This document shows, piece by piece, positions 48,764-59,906 of a DNA stretch of 64,000 nt. The notes beneath the pieces were generated by a model. It was given only the letters and a program-made list of their open reading frames with translations, was not told where the DNA came from and ran no database searches. The stretch comes from Galbibacter mesophilus (GTDB lineage Bacteria > Bacteroidota > Bacteroidia > Flavobacteriales > Flavobacteriaceae), in assembly GCF_023721415.1 (NCBI RefSeq), contig NZ_JAMQVC010000001.1, positions 1,178,001-1,242,000 of the forward strand. The letters are read 5' to 3'. Position 1 is the stretch's first letter; each line of letters begins with the position of its first letter. The position numbers and the translations under genes are program-made.

Positions 48764-48844
48764 GGATATTTTGATAAAAAATATTCTTTTCCTTCCGAAG
48801 CGAAAAAAAAATAGTTGTTAACTTCCTAATGTGAATAAAAAATG

Positions 48845-48893: not shown

Positions 48894-49979
48894 ATGATGA
48901 TAGCACAGAAATCTTTCAAGAGATTTTTTCTTTTAGTAATGTTCTTTGTTTCTTTGGTAGCTACTGCACAAGAACACGAAAACACTCATAATGAGGAGGC
49001 TAACGATGAGGCTTTTAATCCGACAGAATTAATAAATCATCACACTAAAGATTCTCACGAATTCCATATTGCAGATTGGAACGGGCACGCAATTTCTATG
49101 CCGCTTCCAGTGATTTTATGGACAGAAAACGGGTTGGTGACTTTTATGTCTTCTGAATTTCACCACGATGAAGAAGGAAAAGTGATTGTTGAGAAAAACG
49201 GAATGAAGTTTGCCCGTGTTCACGATCAGATTTACTACGCTGATGGTGGATTGAATTTTGATGAAGAGCATCATGTAACTAACGAGCGTCCACTTAACTT
49301 TTCTATTACAAAAAATGTGTTCACTTTAATGATTTCAGCAATTTTAATGTTGTTGATATTCATTCCTGTGGCCAACTCTTATAAAAAGAATCAAAGAGCA
49401 CCAAAAGGGATTGCCGGTTTTATGGAGCCATTAATTGTTTTTGTGCGTGATGACATTGCAAGACCAAATATTGGAGAGAAAAAGTACAAAAAGTACATGC
49501 CGTATTTATTAACGGTGTTCTTTTTAATCTGGATTGGTAACCTTTTCGGGTTGATTCCATTCTTTCCATTCCAAGGAACACTCACCAACGACATTTTGTT
49601 TACTGGTGTATTGGCAACGTTTACCTTTTTAATTACCATTTTTAGTGGTAATAAAAGTTACTGGGGGCATATTTTTGCAACTCCGGGCGTACCAAAATGG
49701 TTGTTGCCAATTATGATTCCTGTTGAGGTTTTGGGTATGTTCACCAAGCCTTTTGCCTTGATGATTCGTTTGTTTGCGAACATCACCGCAGGTCACATTA
49801 TTATATTGAGTTTGTTGTCGTTGATATTTATTTTTGAATCAGCGGCGGTATCACCAATATCAATCGGTTTCTCCTTGTTTATGTACGGGTTGGAATTGTT
49901 GGTTGCGGCATTGCAAGCGTATGTGTTCACATTGCTTTCGGCTTTGTTTATTGGCCAAGCAGTAGAAGAGCACCATTAA
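48894..49979 (+). CDS. atpB: F1F0 ATP synthase subunit a
   Basis: A 361-residue subunit. The C-terminal 200 residues hold the usual helices, with the essential arginine in FALMIRLFANITAGH (about residue 295) and a second conserved stretch, MYGLELLVAALQAYVFTLLSALF. It differs from short a subunits by a signal-like N-terminus and about 100 residues rich in histidine and acids (EHENTHNEE, INHHTKDSHEFH, SEFHHDEEG) facing the periplasm. It forms the proton half-channels in F0. Confidence 0.95.
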   Translation: MMIAQKSFKRFFLLVMFFVSLVATAQEHENTHNEEANDEAFNPTELINHHTKDSHEFHIADWNGHAISMPLPVILWTENGLVTFMSSEFHHDEEGKVIVEKNGMKFARVHDQIYYADGGLNFDEEHHVTNERPLNFSITKNVFTLMISAILMLLIFIPVANSYKKNQRAPKGIAGFMEPLIVFVRDDIARPNIGEKKYKKYMPYLLTVFFLIWIGNLFGLIPFFPFQGTLTNDILFTGVLATFTFLITIFSGNKSYWGHIFATPGVPKWLLPIMIPVEVLGMFTKPFALMIRLFANITAGHIIILSLLSLIFIFESAAVSPISIGFSLFMYGLELLVAALQAYVFTLLSALFIGQAVEEHH

Positions 49980-51435: not shown

Positions 51436-53013
51436 ATGGCTGAAGTTAAAGCGGCTGAGGTATCAGCAATATTAAAAAAGCAACTATCAGGATTTGAAGC
51501 AAAAGCTTCATTAGACGAAGTGGGAACTGTTCTTCAGATAGGGGATGGTATTGCCCGAGTTTACGGATTATCAAATGCACAGTACGGAGAGTTAGTGCAG
51601 TTTGAGTCTGGACTTGAGGGTATCGTTTTGAACCTTGAGGAAGACAATGTTGGTATTGTATTGTTAGGTCCTTCAAAAGAAATTAAAGAAGGAGATACTG
51701 TTAAGCGTACACAGCGTATCGCATCTATTAAAGTAGGTGAAGAAATGGTAGGCCGTGTTGTAGATACACTTGGTAACCCTATCGATGGTAAAGGACCCAT
51801 TGGAGGGGAGCTTTATGAAATGCCTTTGGAGCGTAAAGCACCTGGGGTTATTTTCCGTCAGCCAGTAAACGAGCCTATGCAAACAGGTATCAAATCTATC
51901 GATGCGATGATTCCTGTAGGTAGAGGACAGCGTGAGTTGGTAATTGGTGACCGTCAAACAGGTAAAACTACCGTTTGTATCGATACCATTATCAATCAGA
52001 AAGAATTTTATGATGCTGGTAAGCCAGTATTCTGTATATATGTTGCGGTTGGACAAAAAGCGTCTACTGTTGCAGCAATTGCAAAAACATTAGAAGATAA
52101 AGGAGCGTTGGCTTACACGGTGATCGTTGCTGCAAATGCATCAGATCCTGCTCCAATGCAGGTTTATGCACCATTTGCTGGAGCTGCTATTGGTGAGTAT
52201 TTTAGAGATACAGGCCGTCCTGCTTTAATTGTTTATGATGATTTGTCTAAGCAAGCGGTAGCTTACCGTGAGGTATCGTTACTACTTCGTCGTCCACCAG
52301 GACGTGAGGCATATCCTGGAGACGTTTTCTTCTTGCACTCAAGATTATTGGAGCGTGCTGCAAAAGTGATTGCTGATGATGAGATTGCAAAAGGAATGAA
52401 CGATCTTCCAGAATCTTTGAAGCCAATCGTTAAAGGTGGTGGTTCGTTAACGGCACTACCAATTATCGAAACACAGGCGGGAGACGTTTCTGCATATATT
52501 CCAACCAACGTAATTTCTATTACGGATGGTCAGATTTTCTTGGAGTCAGATTTATTTAACTCTGGAGTACGTCCTGCAATTAACGTAGGTATTTCAGTAT
52601 CGCGTGTAGGTGGGTCTGCTCAGATTAAATCCATGAAAAAAGTAGCTGGTACTTTGAAACTAGACCAAGCGCAATACCGTGAATTGGAAGCGTTTGCTAA
52701 GTTCGGTTCTGATTTGGATGCAGCTACAAGAAACGTAATTGAAAAAGGTAAGCGTAACGTTGAAATCTTAAAGCAAGCTCAAAACGATCCTTACACCGTG
52801 GAAGATCAAATTGCTATTATCTACGCTGGTTCTAAAAACCTTTTAAAGGATGTTCCAGTTGATAAAGTAAAAGAATTTGAAAGCGACTATTTAGAATATT
52901 TGAACGCAAAACACAGAGGCGTATTAGATACATTGAAAGCAGGTAAACTTACAGACGAAGTTACCGATACACTTACACAAGTGTCTAAAGAGCTTTCAGC
53001 AAAATATAAATAG
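51436..53013 (+). CDS. atpA: F1F0 ATP synthase subunit alpha
   Basis: A 525-residue protein with the Walker A loop [13 protein letters not shown] (about residues 171-183), the alpha-family [31 protein letters not shown] split here, and [16 protein letters not shown]. It is the noncatalytic nucleotide-binding subunit of F1. The catalytic beta and the epsilon genes are not in the window. A cassette with a four-helix-bundle gene lies immediately downstream, before atpG. Confidence 0.97.
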
Positions 53014-53017
53014 GCCC

Positions 53018-53049
53018 AGTTATAAGTGTTGAGTTGGGAGTTATGAGTT
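53018..53049 (+). repeat. Left inverted repeat of the four-helix-bundle cassette
   Basis: The arm runs from AGTTATAAG to GTTATGAGTT and contains repeated GAGTT/GTTATGAGTT words. It pairs with the arm at 53387-53418. The gene's ATG (53060) lies 11 bases inside it. Confidence 0.6.
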
Positions 53050-53059
53050 GTTTTTTGTA

Positions 53060-53395
53060 ATGAAAATTAATGAAAGTCCTATTCGGATAAAAAGTTTTGA
53101 TTTTGCATGTGATATTGTAAGATATTGCGATAAACTGAAGCAAGAAAAGGATTTTGTTATAGCTACTCAACTACTAAAAAGCGGAACTAGTATTGGTGCC
53201 AATACACGAGAAGCACAAAGAGCAGTTAGTAAAAAGGATTTTAAAAATAAGTTTGGAATTGCTTTAAAGGAAGCAGACGAAACCAAGTACTGGTTAGAGA
53301 TACTTGAGACAACTGGAAGGCAATTACCAATAGGAATGATGGAAAAGTGTGAAGAGTTGATAAAAATATTGGCAGCAATAACTAAGAACTCATAA
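53060..53395 (+). CDS. Four-helix-bundle protein (23S rRNA IVS-type protein)
   Basis: A 111-residue protein of the IVS/four-helix-bundle family, with SFDFACDIVRYCDKL, ATQLLKSGTSIGANTREAQRA and GIALKEADETKYWLEIL, the family's most conserved stretches. The family is best known from ORFs in intervening sequences of bacterial 23S rRNA genes and may bind RNA. The ATG at 53060 is chosen over a TTG at 53048 that lies within the left repeat. Its stop codon lies inside the right repeat. It interrupts the atp operon. Confidence 0.88.
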   Translation: MKINESPIRIKSFDFACDIVRYCDKLKQEKDFVIATQLLKSGTSIGANTREAQRAVSKKDFKNKFGIALKEADETKYWLEILETTGRQLPIGMMEKCEELIKILAAITKNS

Positions 53396-53418
53396 TTCAG
53401 CACTCAAAATTCATAATT
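53387..53418 (+). repeat. Right inverted repeat of the four-helix-bundle cassette
   Basis: The arm runs from AACTCATAATTCAGC to AAAATTCATAATT. It contains the TAA stop (53393-53395) of the four-helix-bundle gene and is the reverse complement, with eight mismatches, of 53018-53049. Confidence 0.6.
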
Positions 53419-53425
53419 TAAAACA

Positions 53426-54289
53426 ATGGCAAACTTAAAAGAAATACGTAGCAGAATTTCATCGGTGGGTTCAACCATGCAGATTACCAGTGCCATGAAA
53501 ATGGTTTCTGCGGCAAAGTTGAAAAAAGCGCAAGATGCCATTACGGCAATGCGACCATATTCAGATAAACTTACCGAGCTTTTGCAAAGTTTAAGTGCAA
53601 CGTTAGAGGGAGATGCTGGAAGTGTTTTTGCTGAAAGAAGGGAAGTTAAAAATGTTCTTGTTGTAGCAATTACGTCCAATAGAGGATTGTGTGGAGCTTT
53701 CAATACAAACATCATAAAGACGTCTAGCCGTTTAGCGGAATCAACGTATGCTGGTAAAAATGTGAGTTTCGTAACGATTGGAAAAAAAGGAAATGATATC
53801 CTTAAAAAGAGTCATTACGTTACACATAACAATAATGAGATTTTTGATGACCTAACATTTGATAATGTTTCTAAGATAGCAGAGCGTTTGATGATGTTGT
53901 TTGAGGAGCGCACTTACGATAAAATCGTATTGGTTTACAATCATTTTAAAAATGCAGCTACTCAAGCCGTAATTACGGAAGATTTCTTGCCAATTAAACC
54001 TATAGAAAGTGAAGAGCCTGTTGCTTCAGCAGACTACATTTTTGAGCCTTCTAAGGCAGAAATTGTGGAAACGTTGATTCCTAAGTCTTTGAAAACGCAG
54101 TTGTATAAAGCAATTCGTGATTCTTTTGCTTCTGAGCACGGTGCGCGTATGACAGCGATGCACAAAGCAACGGATAACGCTTCGGAATTAAAAGCAGAGC
54201 TTACATTAACTTACAACAAAGCACGTCAAGCCGCTATTACCAACGAAATTTTGGAAATTGTTGGTGGTGCAGAGGCGCTGAACAATTAG
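53426..54289 (+). CDS. atpG: F1F0 ATP synthase subunit gamma
   Basis: A 287-residue protein with the N-terminal shaft helix EIRSRISSVGSTMQITSAMKMVSAAKLKKAQ (split in two by families' register), the central SNRGLCGAFNTNI, and the C-terminal AMHKATDNASELKAELTLTYNKARQAAITNEILEIVGGAEAL region, all typical. It is the rotating shaft of F1. Beta and epsilon do not follow. The last codons are part of a 46-bp tandem repeat. Confidence 0.96.
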   Translation: MANLKEIRSRISSVGSTMQITSAMKMVSAAKLKKAQDAITAMRPYSDKLTELLQSLSATLEGDAGSVFAERREVKNVLVVAITSNRGLCGAFNTNIIKTSSRLAESTYAGKNVSFVTIGKKGNDILKKSHYVTHNNNEIFDDLTFDNVSKIAERLMMLFEERTYDKIVLVYNHFKNAATQAVITEDFLPIKPIESEEPVASADYIFEPSKAEIVETLIPKSLKTQLYKAIRDSFASEHGARMTAMHKATDNASELKAELTLTYNKARQAAITNEILEIVGGAEALNN

Positions 54290-54381
54290 GGACTGAAAGG
54301 AGCAAATTTTTCCAGCGGAAGCATTGAACAATTAGCGACTGAATGGAGCAAATTTTTCAATTTGAAGCTTTGAATAATTAG
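54279..54381. repeat. 46-bp tandem repeat covering the 3' end of atpG
   Basis: Two full units (54279-54324 and 54325-54370) match at about 39 of 46 positions, and 11 bases of a third follow (54371-54381). Each starts TGAACAATTAG or TGAATAATTAG, which in the first unit contains the last two codons and stop of atpG. The best-conserved part reads GGAGCAAATTTTTC. It seems to be a local duplication. Confidence 0.75.
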
Positions 54382-55792: not shown

Positions 55793-56107
55793 ATGACTCT
55801 TTTCAAAACAAAAATACTGCCTTATCTCGGTTTTCTCTGCATTCTTTCAATTATCATATTATCCTATAGATTTCAATACCCATTTTCTGAAAAAGTTATT
55901 ATTGGCTTGTTCATTTTTGCTATTCCTCTCCTTCATCAAATGATGGAAGGTGCCAAGAAAAGTACTACAAAATTGAATAGCAAAACGGGTAATTACCAGA
56001 ATGCCACGGCCGTTAAATTTACTGTCATATCGCAAAAAGTAGCGAAGCCGTCTTTGTCTAATAATCACCGTAAAGGTCAAACAACAAAATCTTATATAAG
56101 TTTATGA
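55793..56107 (+). CDS. Small two-helix membrane protein of unknown function in the DAB operon
   Basis: A 104-residue protein with two hydrophobic segments (about residues 9-26 and 35-49) and a basic, Lys/Asn/Thr-rich tail of about 50 residues. I do not recognise the family. It begins 11 bases after the previous gene, and its stop overlaps the dabB ATG by 4 bases (ATGA). It may be an accessory subunit of the DabAB complex, inferred from position only. Confidence 0.65.
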   Translation: MTLFKTKILPYLGFLCILSIIILSYRFQYPFSEKVIIGLFIFAIPLLHQMMEGAKKSTTKLNSKTGNYQNATAVKFTVISQKVAKPSLSNNHRKGQTTKSYISL

Positions 56108-57543
56108 AGAATATAAATAAACGGGATTCATTTAATATTTTCAAGATTTTAAATCCATTGTTGTGGCTATTATTTATAGCTAACGCGTTGTTTCTCCTTC
56201 TCAGTTTTCCAAATATTCAAGAATGGAGATTTGATGAAATTTTTAGAATCAATGGTTTTACCATGGTAATTTGGACTGTGGTAAGTTTCTTTAGCGCAAT
56301 TATTAGTACCTATTCTAGTAATTATTTAAAGGGATATAAATACTACAACCGATTTGGAGTCTTTCTTCTCGGTTTTACCGTGTCGGTTTTCGTACTTGTA
56401 ATTTCCAACCACTTACTACCTTTTTTACTGTCCTGGGCATTTATGGGTCTTTTTATGGCGCAATTAATCGGGATAGACAAAAGGTGGGGCGAAGCCAGGG
56501 AAGCTTTTAAGTTTACTTTAAAATACTTTATGTTGGGAACACTATTTCTCGCAATAGGAACACTCCTGCTTGCTTTTTACACAAACGAATATACCATTAC
56601 TGGTATTTTGGCTGGAATAGATGGGCTTTCCAAAGTTGTACTTATAACGAGCACGATGTTCATAATATTGGCCGCCATTATTCAGTCGGCAATGTATCCT
56701 TTCCACCGTTGGTTGTTATCTGCCATGACAGCGCCTACACCAGCTTCCGCGCTAATGCACGCCGGTTTTGTTAATGCGGCGGGAATATTGCTAACCCTTT
56801 TTGCGCCATTGCTTTTTGCAGCAAGTATGTTGGATTTACTTTTCATAATAGGAGGCGTAACGGCTATAACCGCTCAGTTTGCTAAGCTCCTGCAAGTAAG
56901 TGTAAAACAAAAATTAGCATGCTCAACCATGGCTCAAATGGGTTTCATGATTATGCAATGCGGGCTAGGTTTCTTTAATGCGGCTGTTGCACACCTTATA
57001 CTCCATGGATTCTATAAAGCCTATTTATTTCTATCTGTTGGAGATACGGTGGAGCAAAAAAGTCCTGAGGATGGACCTATAATCAAAATTACACCATTGC
57101 AATCTTTTCTAGTGTTGATTTTCGGAGTATTGGGTGCTGCGCTCTTTGCCTTGCTAACCGGAAAAGGAACTTCTCTAGATAGTGGAATCATTCTTACGCT
57201 AGTAGTGGCAATTACAGTGGGGCAGGTAACTTACAATATAGTGAAACAAAAAAGCCTATCCCCAACGCAGAGAATTGCGTTGCCTGCGTTTCTCTCAATT
57301 TGCGGGATTGCACTCTATGCTATTGTCTACAACGGAGTGTCCTTATTGTTAATTGATATGCCACTGGCAAATGCTGGTACTTCCCTTTCTGTATTGCAAA
57401 TAAGTACAGGAGTCTTGTTCTTACTGGGGTTCTTTATCATGAAACTCGGCGTGTACCGAAGAGTTCCTTTCCTGTACGTGAAACTCCTCAACGATTCTCA
57501 ACCTTTTAACAAAACTGTATTATCCTACAAATCCAAGTTATAA
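56104..57543 (+). CDS. dabB: DabB, proton-conducting subunit of the inorganic-carbon transporter
   Basis: A 479-residue, strongly hydrophobic protein of the NuoL/MrpA-like family, with the conserved lysine and histidine segments MYPFHRWLLSAMTAPTPASALMHAG (split by a proline-rich turn) and ACSTMAQMGFMIMQCG. In DAB systems it forms the membrane partner of DabA and is thought to use the ion gradient to drive CO2 hydration or bicarbonate accumulation. Its stop overlaps the dabA ATG by one base. Confidence 0.88.
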   Translation: MKNINKRDSFNIFKILNPLLWLLFIANALFLLLSFPNIQEWRFDEIFRINGFTMVIWTVVSFFSAIISTYSSNYLKGYKYYNRFGVFLLGFTVSVFVLVISNHLLPFLLSWAFMGLFMAQLIGIDKRWGEAREAFKFTLKYFMLGTLFLAIGTLLLAFYTNEYTITGILAGIDGLSKVVLITSTMFIILAAIIQSAMYPFHRWLLSAMTAPTPASALMHAGFVNAAGILLTLFAPLLFAASMLDLLFIIGGVTAITAQFAKLLQVSVKQKLACSTMAQMGFMIMQCGLGFFNAAVAHLILHGFYKAYLFLSVGDTVEQKSPEDGPIIKITPLQSFLVLIFGVLGAALFALLTGKGTSLDSGIILTLVVAITVGQVTYNIVKQKSLSPTQRIALPAFLSICGIALYAIVYNGVSLLLIDMPLANAGTSLSVLQISTGVLFLLGFFIMKLGVYRRVPFLYVKLLNDSQPFNKTVLSYKSKL

Positions 57544-59906
57544 TGAAAAAAACGCAACTCTTTACAACTATCGACGCTGCCTCCAAGGTGGTAGGAAAAA
57601 CGTGGCCGCTCTATTCCTTTGTAACCTCCAACCCTCTTTCGGGGTATGAAAACATGCCATTTCAAAAAGCTATTGAAAAGGTAGAAAACACTTTGGGCGC
57701 CAATGCCATGCCGAGTCCAGAAATGTTTCGTAAAGCATGGGAGGGAGAAGAAATAAATCGGGACATTTTATCTAAACTTCTCTTGGCTGAAGGATATAAA
57801 GATTCTCCAGAGCATTCTCTAAGTATCTTAGAGGCGCAAAGGGTTTCTCAACAGAAAAACGAAAACCACCAATTGGATCAGATAGTTACTAAATGGCTTG
57901 GTGCCTTCATGGATGAAGGAGTGTCTGAATGGCAAATGCCTAATAGACAAAAGGGATTTTACGCTGCTTGGCGTGCTTTGGCTCCGTACGATAGTCAAAT
58001 TAAAAGTATCAAGGCCAGTGAAATTCCAAAGACGAAAACGGAGGCGTTATTGCAAGTACTCTCATCTTATAGCGAAGAGGAGTGTGGAAAAATAATGGAA
58101 TATCACTTGGCCGCATTACCGGGCTGGACGGGCTATATTAAACTTCGGGTGGATGAAGATTCGCTTTGGCACAAAAAGAACCCAATTACCTTAGAAGATT
58201 ACTTGGCGGTACGTTTGTGGATAGCACATAAAATTGGTACAAAAATACTTCCGAAGAAAAATGAGAATGGCAATCGTTCTGAATATTTAAAGCTAGCTTA
58301 TATTTGGCTGAAGGCTTGGGAAAAATCATGGCAACAGGATTTAACAAGTACCTTACGGTCTAAAGCAATTCTGAAAGGAGGCATTGAGAAGCCAGATGCA
58401 CAAATGGTATTCTGTATAGATACCCGTTCGGAAGCGATTAGGAGGCACGTAGAATCACAAGGGAAGTATGAAACCTTCGGCTATGCCGGCTTCTTTGGTA
58501 TCGCGATGGATTACGAAAACATGGAGGACGGTAATACAAGAAAATCATGCCCGCCAATTGTGAATTCTTCTTACAAAGTTTCAGAAGCTTCAAAAGATAA
58601 CCAACAAGAGGTCTTTTCAAACTTTAAAAAGAAAATTGAGAGGAGGCAGTTCGGGAATTATTTCCTTCGAAGACTTAAAAATATGTTGCCTTCTGCCTTC
58701 GGATACGTAGAAACTACAGGAGCGGCTTACGGAGTATCTCTGTTGCTGAAAACACTGGTGCCAGATTACCTGTATCGTTTTAATCAGAAAAATAAAACGA
58801 ACCATGAACACTTTTGTGATACGAAATTAACGAAATACACTTCTGAAGCCGCTATCGAAGAAAAAGCGGGTATCGTTAAAGCGGCATTCGATCTTATGGG
58901 CTGGGAAGAGTTTGCTCCACTCGTACTGTTTGTGGGTCATGGAAGCCATTCATCCAACAACGCTTTTAGTTCCAGTTTAGAATGTGGTGCTTGTGCGGCA
59001 AGCCCCGGTAGGCATAATGCTAGAATGCTTGCTAGTCTGGCAAACGATAAGGAGGTACGCGGATTTTTACAGAATGAATTTGAACTTTCAATCCCGAACG
59101 ATACTGTTTTTATAGGTGCAGAACACAACACCACGACCGATGAGATTGTACTGTTTGATGCGGATGTGCCAGAAACACACCTTGAACGCTTGAAAAACCT
59201 TAAAAATGATTTACTTAGCATCCAAAAGAAAGCTACTCAGGAGCGATTGCAAGATACATCCAATAGCGTAGCAAAGGCGCAACGAAAAGCGAACGACTGG
59301 ACCGAAACCAGACCGGAATGGGGGCTCGCAAAAAATGCCACTTTTATTATAGCTCCGCGAGCCTTAACCAAAAGCCTTAATCTTCGAGGAAGATCCTTTT
59401 TACACTCCTACAACTGGGAATTAGACTCCTCTGGAGCAGCTTTGGAAGGAATTATGCAAGGACCTATGGTGGTAACGCAGTGGATTAACAATCACTATTA
59501 CTTTGCCACGGTAAACAACGAAGCTTTTGGCGGCGGATCTAAAATAACCCATAACATTACAGGGAAATTTGGTGCGGTAACGGGAAATGGTGGTGATTTA
59601 AAGATAGGACTGCCCTTACAGTCACTCATGGAAACCGATGATGAGGCTTATCATCAACCATTGAGATTGTCTGTATGCATTCAGGCGCCTATAAAACGAA
59701 TAGAGAAGATTTTGGAGAAGAATCCGAGCCTAAAAAATCTTTTTGAAAACGAATGGATTTATCTAATGGTTATGGATCCGGAAGACGGAAATAAAATTAA
59801 AAACTATGAGAAAGGTATGGTTTGGGGGCAACATTCGGCAAGTATAGCTGGACGAAAAAAAGAACGTTTACAGCAAGTAGAGGACAGCGTACTAATGCCT
59901 GTTTAA
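57543..59906 (+). CDS. dabA: DabA (DUF2309), carbonic-anhydrase-like subunit
   Basis: A 787-residue DUF2309 protein. The proposed zinc ligands and active-site residues are in place: Cys291 and Asp293 in FCIDTRSEAIRRH, His466 in FVGHGSHSSNN, and Cys481 in LECGACAAS. The spacing (2 between the first pair, 15 between His and Cys) equals that of the studied Halothiobacillus DabA (C351, D353, H524, C539). It converts CO2 to bicarbonate in one direction when coupled to DabB. A terminator follows. Confidence 0.93.
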   Translation: MKKTQLFTTIDAASKVVGKTWPLYSFVTSNPLSGYENMPFQKAIEKVENTLGANAMPSPEMFRKAWEGEEINRDILSKLLLAEGYKDSPEHSLSILEAQRVSQQKNENHQLDQIVTKWLGAFMDEGVSEWQMPNRQKGFYAAWRALAPYDSQIKSIKASEIPKTKTEALLQVLSSYSEEECGKIMEYHLAALPGWTGYIKLRVDEDSLWHKKNPITLEDYLAVRLWIAHKIGTKILPKKNENGNRSEYLKLAYIWLKAWEKSWQQDLTSTLRSKAILKGGIEKPDAQMVFCIDTRSEAIRRHVESQGKYETFGYAGFFGIAMDYENMEDGNTRKSCPPIVNSSYKVSEASKDNQQEVFSNFKKKIERRQFGNYFLRRLKNMLPSAFGYVETTGAAYGVSLLLKTLVPDYLYRFNQKNKTNHEHFCDTKLTKYTSEAAIEEKAGIVKAAFDLMGWEEFAPLVLFVGHGSHSSNNAFSSSLECGACAASPGRHNARMLASLANDKEVRGFLQNEFELSIPNDTVFIGAEHNTTTDEIVLFDADVPETHLERLKNLKNDLLSIQKKATQERLQDTSNSVAKAQRKANDWTETRPEWGLAKNATFIIAPRALTKSLNLRGRSFLHSYNWELDSSGAALEGIMQGPMVVTQWINNHYYFATVNNEAFGGGSKITHNITGKFGAVTGNGGDLKIGLPLQSLMETDDEAYHQPLRLSVCIQAPIKRIEKILEKNPSLKNLFENEWIYLMVMDPEDGNKIKNYEKGMVWGQHSASIAGRKKERLQQVEDSVLMPV

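Follow-up and report, generated by a model that had tools for sequence, protein, structure and literature searches.

The atpA–atpG junction of Galbibacter mesophilus holds a cassette in which a gene for a four-helix-bundle (4HB) protein lies between two inverted arms that look like degenerate arrays of a seven-base unit. The same architecture recurs around 4HB genes in several phyla, with a heptamer particular to each locus and with matched arms; orthologous sites occur with and without the cassette, and in Bacteroidota the gene is placed in the same direction as its neighbors. We lean towards the reading that this is an operon-resident element of the intervening-sequence (IVS)/S23 class, with a 4HB gene between two inverted heptamer arrays set in sense orientation between codirectional genes and arms that are copied at the DNA level. 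The cassette is likely to belong to the same class as the IVSs of rRNA genes. IVS elements have been described in rRNA; reported here are the presence of the same cassette between protein genes, its spread over several phyla and the ability of its arms to turn over in concert. The window (the whole stretch of 64 000 nucleotides that was analysed) is part of a genome of 3.77 Mb (G000), with the atp genes on the forward strand. The features of the junction are as follows.

53018–53418, + strand: whole cassette (left arm, 4HB gene and right arm), which fills almost all of the atpA–atpG junction
53018–53049, + strand: left arm, a degenerate heptamer array of AGTTATG type that matches the right arm at 24 of 32 positions
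53060–53395, + strand: 4HB gene (23S rRNA intervening-sequence protein, IVP, or S23), 111 amino acids, ATG start; TIGR02436, PF05635
53387–53418, + strand: right arm, which pairs with the left arm in inverted orientation and contains the 4HB stop codon (53393–53395)
51436–53013, + strand: atpA, ATP synthase alpha subunit, the upstream neighbor; PF00006, PF00306, PF02874
53426–54289, + strand: atpG, ATP synthase gamma subunit, the downstream neighbor; PF00231, 335.3 bits

A sequence-only reading of the window had proposed an IVS-like cassette at this place, consisting of a 4HB gene with inverted repeats between atpA and atpG. The gene is confirmed by profile scores of 91.9 bits for TIGR02436 (cut-off 24) and 72.5 bits for PF05635 (cut-off 33.8), and its product matches PDB entry 2rld_A with a phmmer E value of 8.7e-22. 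The arms are as they had been described: they pair at 24/32 positions with the innermost nine perfect, the left arm begins 4 bases after the atpA stop, the right arm ends 7 bases before the atpG ATG and the 4HB stop codon lies inside the right arm. A repeat search extends the arms to 33 nt (76%), and an in-frame TTG (53048) falls in the inner end of this left arm, upstream of the 4HB ATG. The suggested folding into a stem also holds, with an RNA fold of 53011–53425 that has a z score of −2.67 (1 of 100 shuffles was as good) and a minimum-free-energy structure that closes on the arms. Judged alone, the window arms exceed chance only just, with a score of 13.0 that is near the 99th percentile of ordinary genes (95th percentile 11.0 and 99th 13.1 in the flanks of 277 other genes); they are credible because the family of 4HB loci shares such arms. 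The period-7 array of the window, which was found at 53031–53058 at a lax threshold, is degenerate. A partner search for period-7 arrays did not set the window apart from the background, as its own array finds a partner at 11.5 and three of 19 other arrays find an inverted partner at 12.0–13.0, in A/T-rich DNA or at short range. A sigma-70 scan of 52900–53500 for a promoter of the cassette's own returned two sites compared with 1.8 in shuffles, using a model that may not suit this host; the promoters of Bacteroidota differ from the sigma-70 consensus type. An Rfam scan of the window at gathering thresholds gave no match to a known RNA gene.

The genome that contains the window has seven TIGR02436 genes, the heptamers of which differ even among themselves, and 4HB genes were found in 41 of the 60 relatives searched. 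A first set of 128 distinct 4HB loci was assembled from Flavobacteriales genomes (10 of 138 hits were dropped owing to a short flank or as partial or duplicate) and was compared with 277 other genes from G000 and G013. The flanks of the 4HB genes carry short tandem repeats, often with a period of seven, that run in opposite orientations before and after the gene. Arrays at lag 7 are present in both flanks of 69 of the 128 4HB loci versus one of the 277 control genes, and in either flank of 95 versus 27. Both-flank counts at lags 5, 6 and 9–13 were only 0–2, and 18 loci scored at lag 8, with some arrays appearing octameric; a clear array is missing in one or both flanks of 59 loci. The arms of 76 loci score above the 99th percentile of the controls. 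The median flank-versus-flank score is 15 with the own partner and 8.5 with a random partner, and the own partner beats all 12 random partners in 84 loci (9.8 expected). The autocorrelation of 194 arms with an own score of at least 12 is 0.51, 0.49 and 0.45 at lags 7, 14 and 21, respectively (∼0.32 when shuffled), and the coding part of the loci displays no peak at these lags. We are very sure of this excess of period-7 inverted arms around 4HB genes and of their matching to their own partners.

The heptamer differs from locus to locus, and the left arm tends to recur as its reverse complement on the right. Of the 32-base arms in the sequence-only reading, the inverted arms are real and the fixed 32-base sequence is not, since the heptamer tends to change from one locus to the next. 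The differences between loci rule out an arm sequence common to all copies, and a DNA transposon or MITE with fixed terminal repeats does not fit them. A conserved heptamer core is also ruled out, with an information content of 1.99 bits compared with a mean of 1.97 and a maximum of 2.02 in position-permuted controls. G exceeds C in 85 and falls below it in nine of 97 left arms; arms from other phyla appear mixed by eye.

The second set comprised six plasmid loci and 80 loci from a species-level collection of genomes, the best of 564 confirmed relatives, and leans towards the subfamily of the window and the atp site (15 of 81 rows). Six of these 86 loci gave no usable domain (L197, L200, L203, L207, L237 and L241) and L251 gave two; three loci are common to both sets (L014/L201, L022/L261 and L024/L259), and the 209 rows thus represent 206 distinct loci. 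Lag-7 arrays occupy both flanks in 55 of the 81 domains, with at most one domain at lags 5, 6 and 9–13 (counted in 4HB loci alone), and the own partner beats ten random partners in 51 of the 81. By group, both flanks are periodic in 24 of 43 Bacteroidota rows outside the atp site, in the single Bernardetia row, in 11 of 15 rows at the atp site and in 19 of 22 rows outside Bacteroidota. The last group includes four cyanobacterial plasmids, Bacillota (6/7), Ignavibacteriota (2/3) and Mycoplasmatota (0/1), together with Spirochaetota, Myxococcota, Balneolota, Cloacimonadota and Patescibacteria. All six plasmid loci (four from cyanobacteria, one each from Treponema and Bernardetia) have heptamer arms by eye. 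Matches to the TIGR02436 family were found in two of 50 697 phage records and 25 of 72 556 plasmid records. The patescibacterial genome behind L243 (G102), of ∼1.4 Mb, contains 21 TIGR02436 matches.

The neighbors are codirectional on both sides at 123 of the 128 Flavobacteriales loci and in 188 of all 209 rows compared with 155 of 274 background triplets, as counted from crude ORF calls with ORFs running off the fetched DNA retained. No 4HB gene was located in rRNA in an Rfam scan of the window and 39 further locus records, some of which cover the same places. The family of G099 gave eight matches, five of them in ORFs of 263–298 residues, and four new loci (L349–L352) outside the scanned records. 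A cassette between two apparent CoA-transferase subunit genes (named by sequence reading) is seen in several genera (L003, L019, L027, L034, L040 and L023), which makes this type of junction a second recurrent site.

The closest published parallel that we consider is the 23S rRNA IVS of Coxiella burnetii, an element of ∼430 nt with a 28 bp terminal stem, excision by RNase III and an S23 ORF, as described in the relevant part of PMC4990558. Upstream of the ORF it carries tandem heptamers (GACAGAT) with a copy number that varies between strains, which that part of the paper treats as a local feature; the ORF is said there to be decaying and probably not expressed (PMC4990558). Like this IVS, the window cassette combines a four-helix protein of the S23/IVP family, a terminal inverted-repeat stem and tandem heptamers. 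Unlike it, the cassette lies in a protein-coding operon and not in an rRNA gene, and most 4HB genes at the atp site are intact and under purifying selection. The cassette therefore has the protein family and the stem-forming inverted repeats of an IVS/S23 element and differs in its location; the tandem heptamers, which are in print for Coxiella only and belong to no formal definition, are also present, in degenerate form in the window itself. With this parallel, the recurrence of the architecture at many 4HB genes and the existence of junctions with and without it, the label of IVS-like cassette is supported.

The PF05635 family is said to resemble Avd, an accessory protein of diversity-generating retroelements, in the section of PMC10053308 that deals with it. 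The window protein shares the PF05635 four-helix bundle with Avd, but unlike such retroelements its genome has no RVT_1 reverse transcriptase: PF00078 gave no match in the whole genome and was positive in three of 14 control genomes. The reverse transcriptase that would be the partner of an Avd-like protein is thus missing in this genome, and another host polymerase would have to copy the arms. 23S_rRNA_IVP genes have been listed with CRISPR-associated genes, beside or between cas genes, in parts of PMC3936711 and PMC10910872. In contrast to that listed association, the cas2–4HB–cas1 loci found here have heptamer arms and cassette-free relatives; insertion is a simpler reading for these loci and may account for part of the published 'CRISPR association' of IVP genes. 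Direct repeats of the heptamer TAACTGA have been described in Beggiatoaceae, cyanobacteria and Bacteroidetes (in the portion of PMC4679880 concerned). They resemble the 4HB arms in being intergenic tandem heptamers in overlapping taxa and differ in consisting of one fixed, direct heptamer, the 4HB arms being locus-specific and inverted; the text of PMC4679880 contains no S23, four-helix or intervening-sequence term. Among the titles and abstract beginnings listed from the open-access literature, none joins 4HB genes with inverted heptamer arrays. The IVS protein was still called functionally uncharacterized in 2024, in a passage of PMC11270868.

We compared the arms of orthologous cassettes, requiring a score of at least 13 for both arms in both loci, a condition that favors similarity within a locus. 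In 27 independent pairs, the mean within-locus similarity exceeds the mean similarity between the same sides of different species in two of 11 pairs with core identity above 77% and in ten of 16 at or below 77%; at or below 72%, all four independent pairs keep within-locus scores of 13–27 and same-side scores between species of 6–12.5. The same comparison over all 136 orthologous pairs gives 85 in which the within-locus similarity is the higher. For L204/L246, the two arms of each locus score 27 and 24.5 against each other and the same sides of the two loci score 9.5 and 7.5, where unrelated flanks have a median of 8.5. The arms of L233 and L258 are identical within each locus (22/22 and 32/32), but the sides are also alike across the two loci (22 left, 16 right), so this pair is not clean. 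Concerted change of the arms is hence not general; slow turnover predicts such counts, as does weak signal, and the exchange of one cassette for another would give the same picture where the sites have diverged most.

The mismatches between the arms bear on whether similarity is kept at the level of DNA or RNA. If the cassette were a true mRNA intervening sequence, the arms would pair in the atp transcript, RNase III would cut the stem and selection on the RNA stem would keep the arms complementary. The complementary arms, the short cassette and its sense orientation between codirectional genes all suit such an element, the rRNA IVS of Coxiella is cleaved by RNase III in vitro according to the part of PMC4990558 that describes it, and atp junctions that lack the gene often keep an inverted repeat (in 13 of 23, above all 20 shuffles). 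Against it, the mismatches show no preference for G·U pairs in the sense strand (135 sense versus 163 antisense; on 183 loci, 236 versus 294, with p = 0.013 in the wrong direction), three cyanobacterial cassettes with equally good arms are antisense to both annotated neighbors and the heptamers are not explained by RNA pairing alone. We therefore regard an mRNA intervening sequence as possible although rather unlikely. The lack of a sense G·U preference, taken with the concerted turnover, favors copying at the DNA level, and the comparison of sequences tips slightly towards arms that are copied from each other in DNA. Broken 4HB genes keep their arms nearly as alike as intact genes (median arm scores of 12.75, n = 20, and 15, n = 122; p = 0.09), and a dependence of the arms on the 4HB protein is accordingly treated as conjecture.

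The 4HB gene was found between atpA and atpG in 19 rows (18 distinct loci), which form one side of a branch among the 209 4HBs with a support of only 38. The nearest to the window's locus among the named ones, within the best 80 of 564 confirmed relatives, are from Flavobacteriaceae. The window gene and its ortholog in G002 have a dN/dS of 0.04, and of the 18 pairs that include the window gene, the 12 for which the ratio was computable gave 0.04–0.28, with synonymous sites near saturation. Mean pN/pS over 171 pairs is 0.27 for the atp-site 4HB compared with 0.22 for atpG. These values refer to intact copies, the two atp-site copies that are broken by stops (G012 and G016) being set aside, and the intact genes are under strong purifying selection.

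Such selection, the 18 distinct loci that carry the gene at the atp site and the inverted repeats at many empty junctions are what would be expected if this were an ordinary, conserved gene of the operon accompanied by a regulatory hairpin. The 4HB protein would then be of use to the host, and the arms would adjust the stability or translation of the mRNA between atpA and atpG. The distribution and history of the gene make this improbable. Of 30 atpA–atpG junctions, including that of the window, five have the 4HB gene and 25 do not, all of the latter belonging to the 29 relatives; a further atp-site gene is that of G043, in L015. On an atp tree of 45 rows, 15 of which were added because they carry the gene, its presence requires 13 changes and is about as scattered as shuffled labels (14.8 on average, with 103 of 500 shuffles as low). 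The Mantel correlation between 4HB and atpG is 0.59, and 0.28 without two long rows. The 4HB tree conflicts with that of the operon: an alignment of 18 rows (L202 and L095, with long branches, were left out) rejects the atp topology, with fixed-topology log-likelihoods of −1427.9 and −1660.3 and an AU p of 1.6e-7. Simple descent with the operon therefore does not account for the cassette, which either passed from lineage to lineage at the atp site or existed in several variants that were lost differentially. The broken copies, the recurrence of this architecture beside unrelated genes and in further phyla, and the empty sites elsewhere also argue against an ordinary operon gene. According to the sequence-only reading, such a gene would be present at this place without repeats in all relatives, or its repeats would be found nowhere else; instead the junctions vary and the arms recur at other 4HB loci.

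The proposal that the cassette is selfish is doubtful, given the strong purifying selection on the intact atp-site genes and the sharing of both flanks by close 4HB relatives. Both flanks are common to a row and its nearest 4HB in 41 of 44 rows when the identity is at least 80%, in 34 of 85 at 65–80%, in 14 of 71 at 50–65% and in none of nine below 50%. On the visible time scale, cassettes are rarely placed at new sites. Among pairs with cores of at least 85% identity, L234/L248 (87%) is the sole one with unrelated flanks, so that mobility can only be inferred; near 80%, the matches listed include a few partial ones whose flanks are also unrelated.

Sites with, without and with decayed cassettes were compared at several junctions. 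Of the 25 empty atpA–atpG junctions, 23 are at least 30 nt long. Five cassette-free atpA–atpG junctions (L071, L072, L074, L081 and L089) have another repeat, roughly GCCCCACTCGGTCTCC ... GAGAGGATTTAGGAGAGGC, which gives the impression that a hairpin of one kind or another is apt to occupy this place. At the hisH–hisA site (names by sequence reading), a cassette is present in G000, nothing but a short heptamer-like hairpin with the same first bases as the left arm of G000 in G005, and arm-like ends with a 4HB remnant in G004; no 4HB was seen at this site in G001, G002, G003 and G006. Between cas2 and cas1 the cassette lies antisense in L181 and L292 (Nostoc and Anabaena plasmids) and is absent in L293 and L294, where the two genes are 2 nt apart or overlap; comparison of these sequences suggests that the cas1 end was replaced at the cassette site. 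One plasmid of Nostoc C052 carries a cassette at a position that is filled by different sequence in paralogous plasmids. No clean, repeated target-site duplication was seen among the few sites compared: the cassette is bordered by a direct repeat of 5 bases (ACAGG) in L181 and not in L292, and target DNA is apparently lost at both Nostoc-type sites. L291 was left out of the alignments.

That the heptamer hairpins are a host repeat class in which the 4HB gene landed as a passenger is less probable still, as the gene-less heptamer-like hairpins at relatives' atp junctions and at hisH–hisA of G005 could equally be remnants, and the period-7 arrays elsewhere, three of 19 with an inverted partner above the 11.5 of the window, are set against both-flank periodicity in one of 277 control genes versus 69 of 128 4HB genes and against 464 kb of mostly random sequence in which period-7 arrays (21 at the lax threshold used) are no commoner than those at lags 9 and 12 (24 and 27). 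At a strict threshold, the same 464 kb gave five period-7 arrays versus 0–3 at other lags.

For the preferred reading, an IVS/S23-class element with arms copied at the DNA level, the following mechanism can be envisaged. The arms would be kept alike by heptamer slippage combined with templated copying or template switching through the hairpin. The 4HB protein may bind the paired arms, which would explain why such arms are found around 4HB genes and hardly around others; that it takes part in copying them is our guess. Cassettes would spread rarely and mostly to the same site in another lineage, by recombination in the conserved flanking genes; placement at new sites would be rare, and loss by deletion could leave a short heptamer hairpin. 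A wider view, which we offer tentatively and consider unlikely in its full form, is that of a phylum-crossing element class with ends that are self-renewing inverted heptamer arrays, a telomere-like principle inside bacterial operons of which the rRNA IVSs would be the special case noticed first. The 4HB protein and a host polymerase would write seven-base units and copy one arm from the other, and the arms would stay complementary as their sequence drifts. The cassettes link rRNA IVSs, genes annotated as 'four helix bundle protein' and at least some IVP genes of cas loci, and make the function of the 4HB protein testable as binding or upkeep of the arms. The atpA–atpG junction provides a well defined model, for which relatives offer intact and broken versions as well as empty junctions.

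Other features of the window were noted near the atp genes. A 46 bp tandem repeat at 54279–54381 places a second copy of the atpG end, stop codon included, just after the gene. A 30 bp tandem repeat of 2.3 copies at 48774–48843 lies upstream of an ORF (48894–49979) that we take to be atpB from its place and sequence. At 56104–59906, a membrane-subunit ORF and an adjacent ORF of 787 residues resemble an inorganic carbon uptake pair of the DabB/DabA type, with what appears to be a LysR-like gene nearby.
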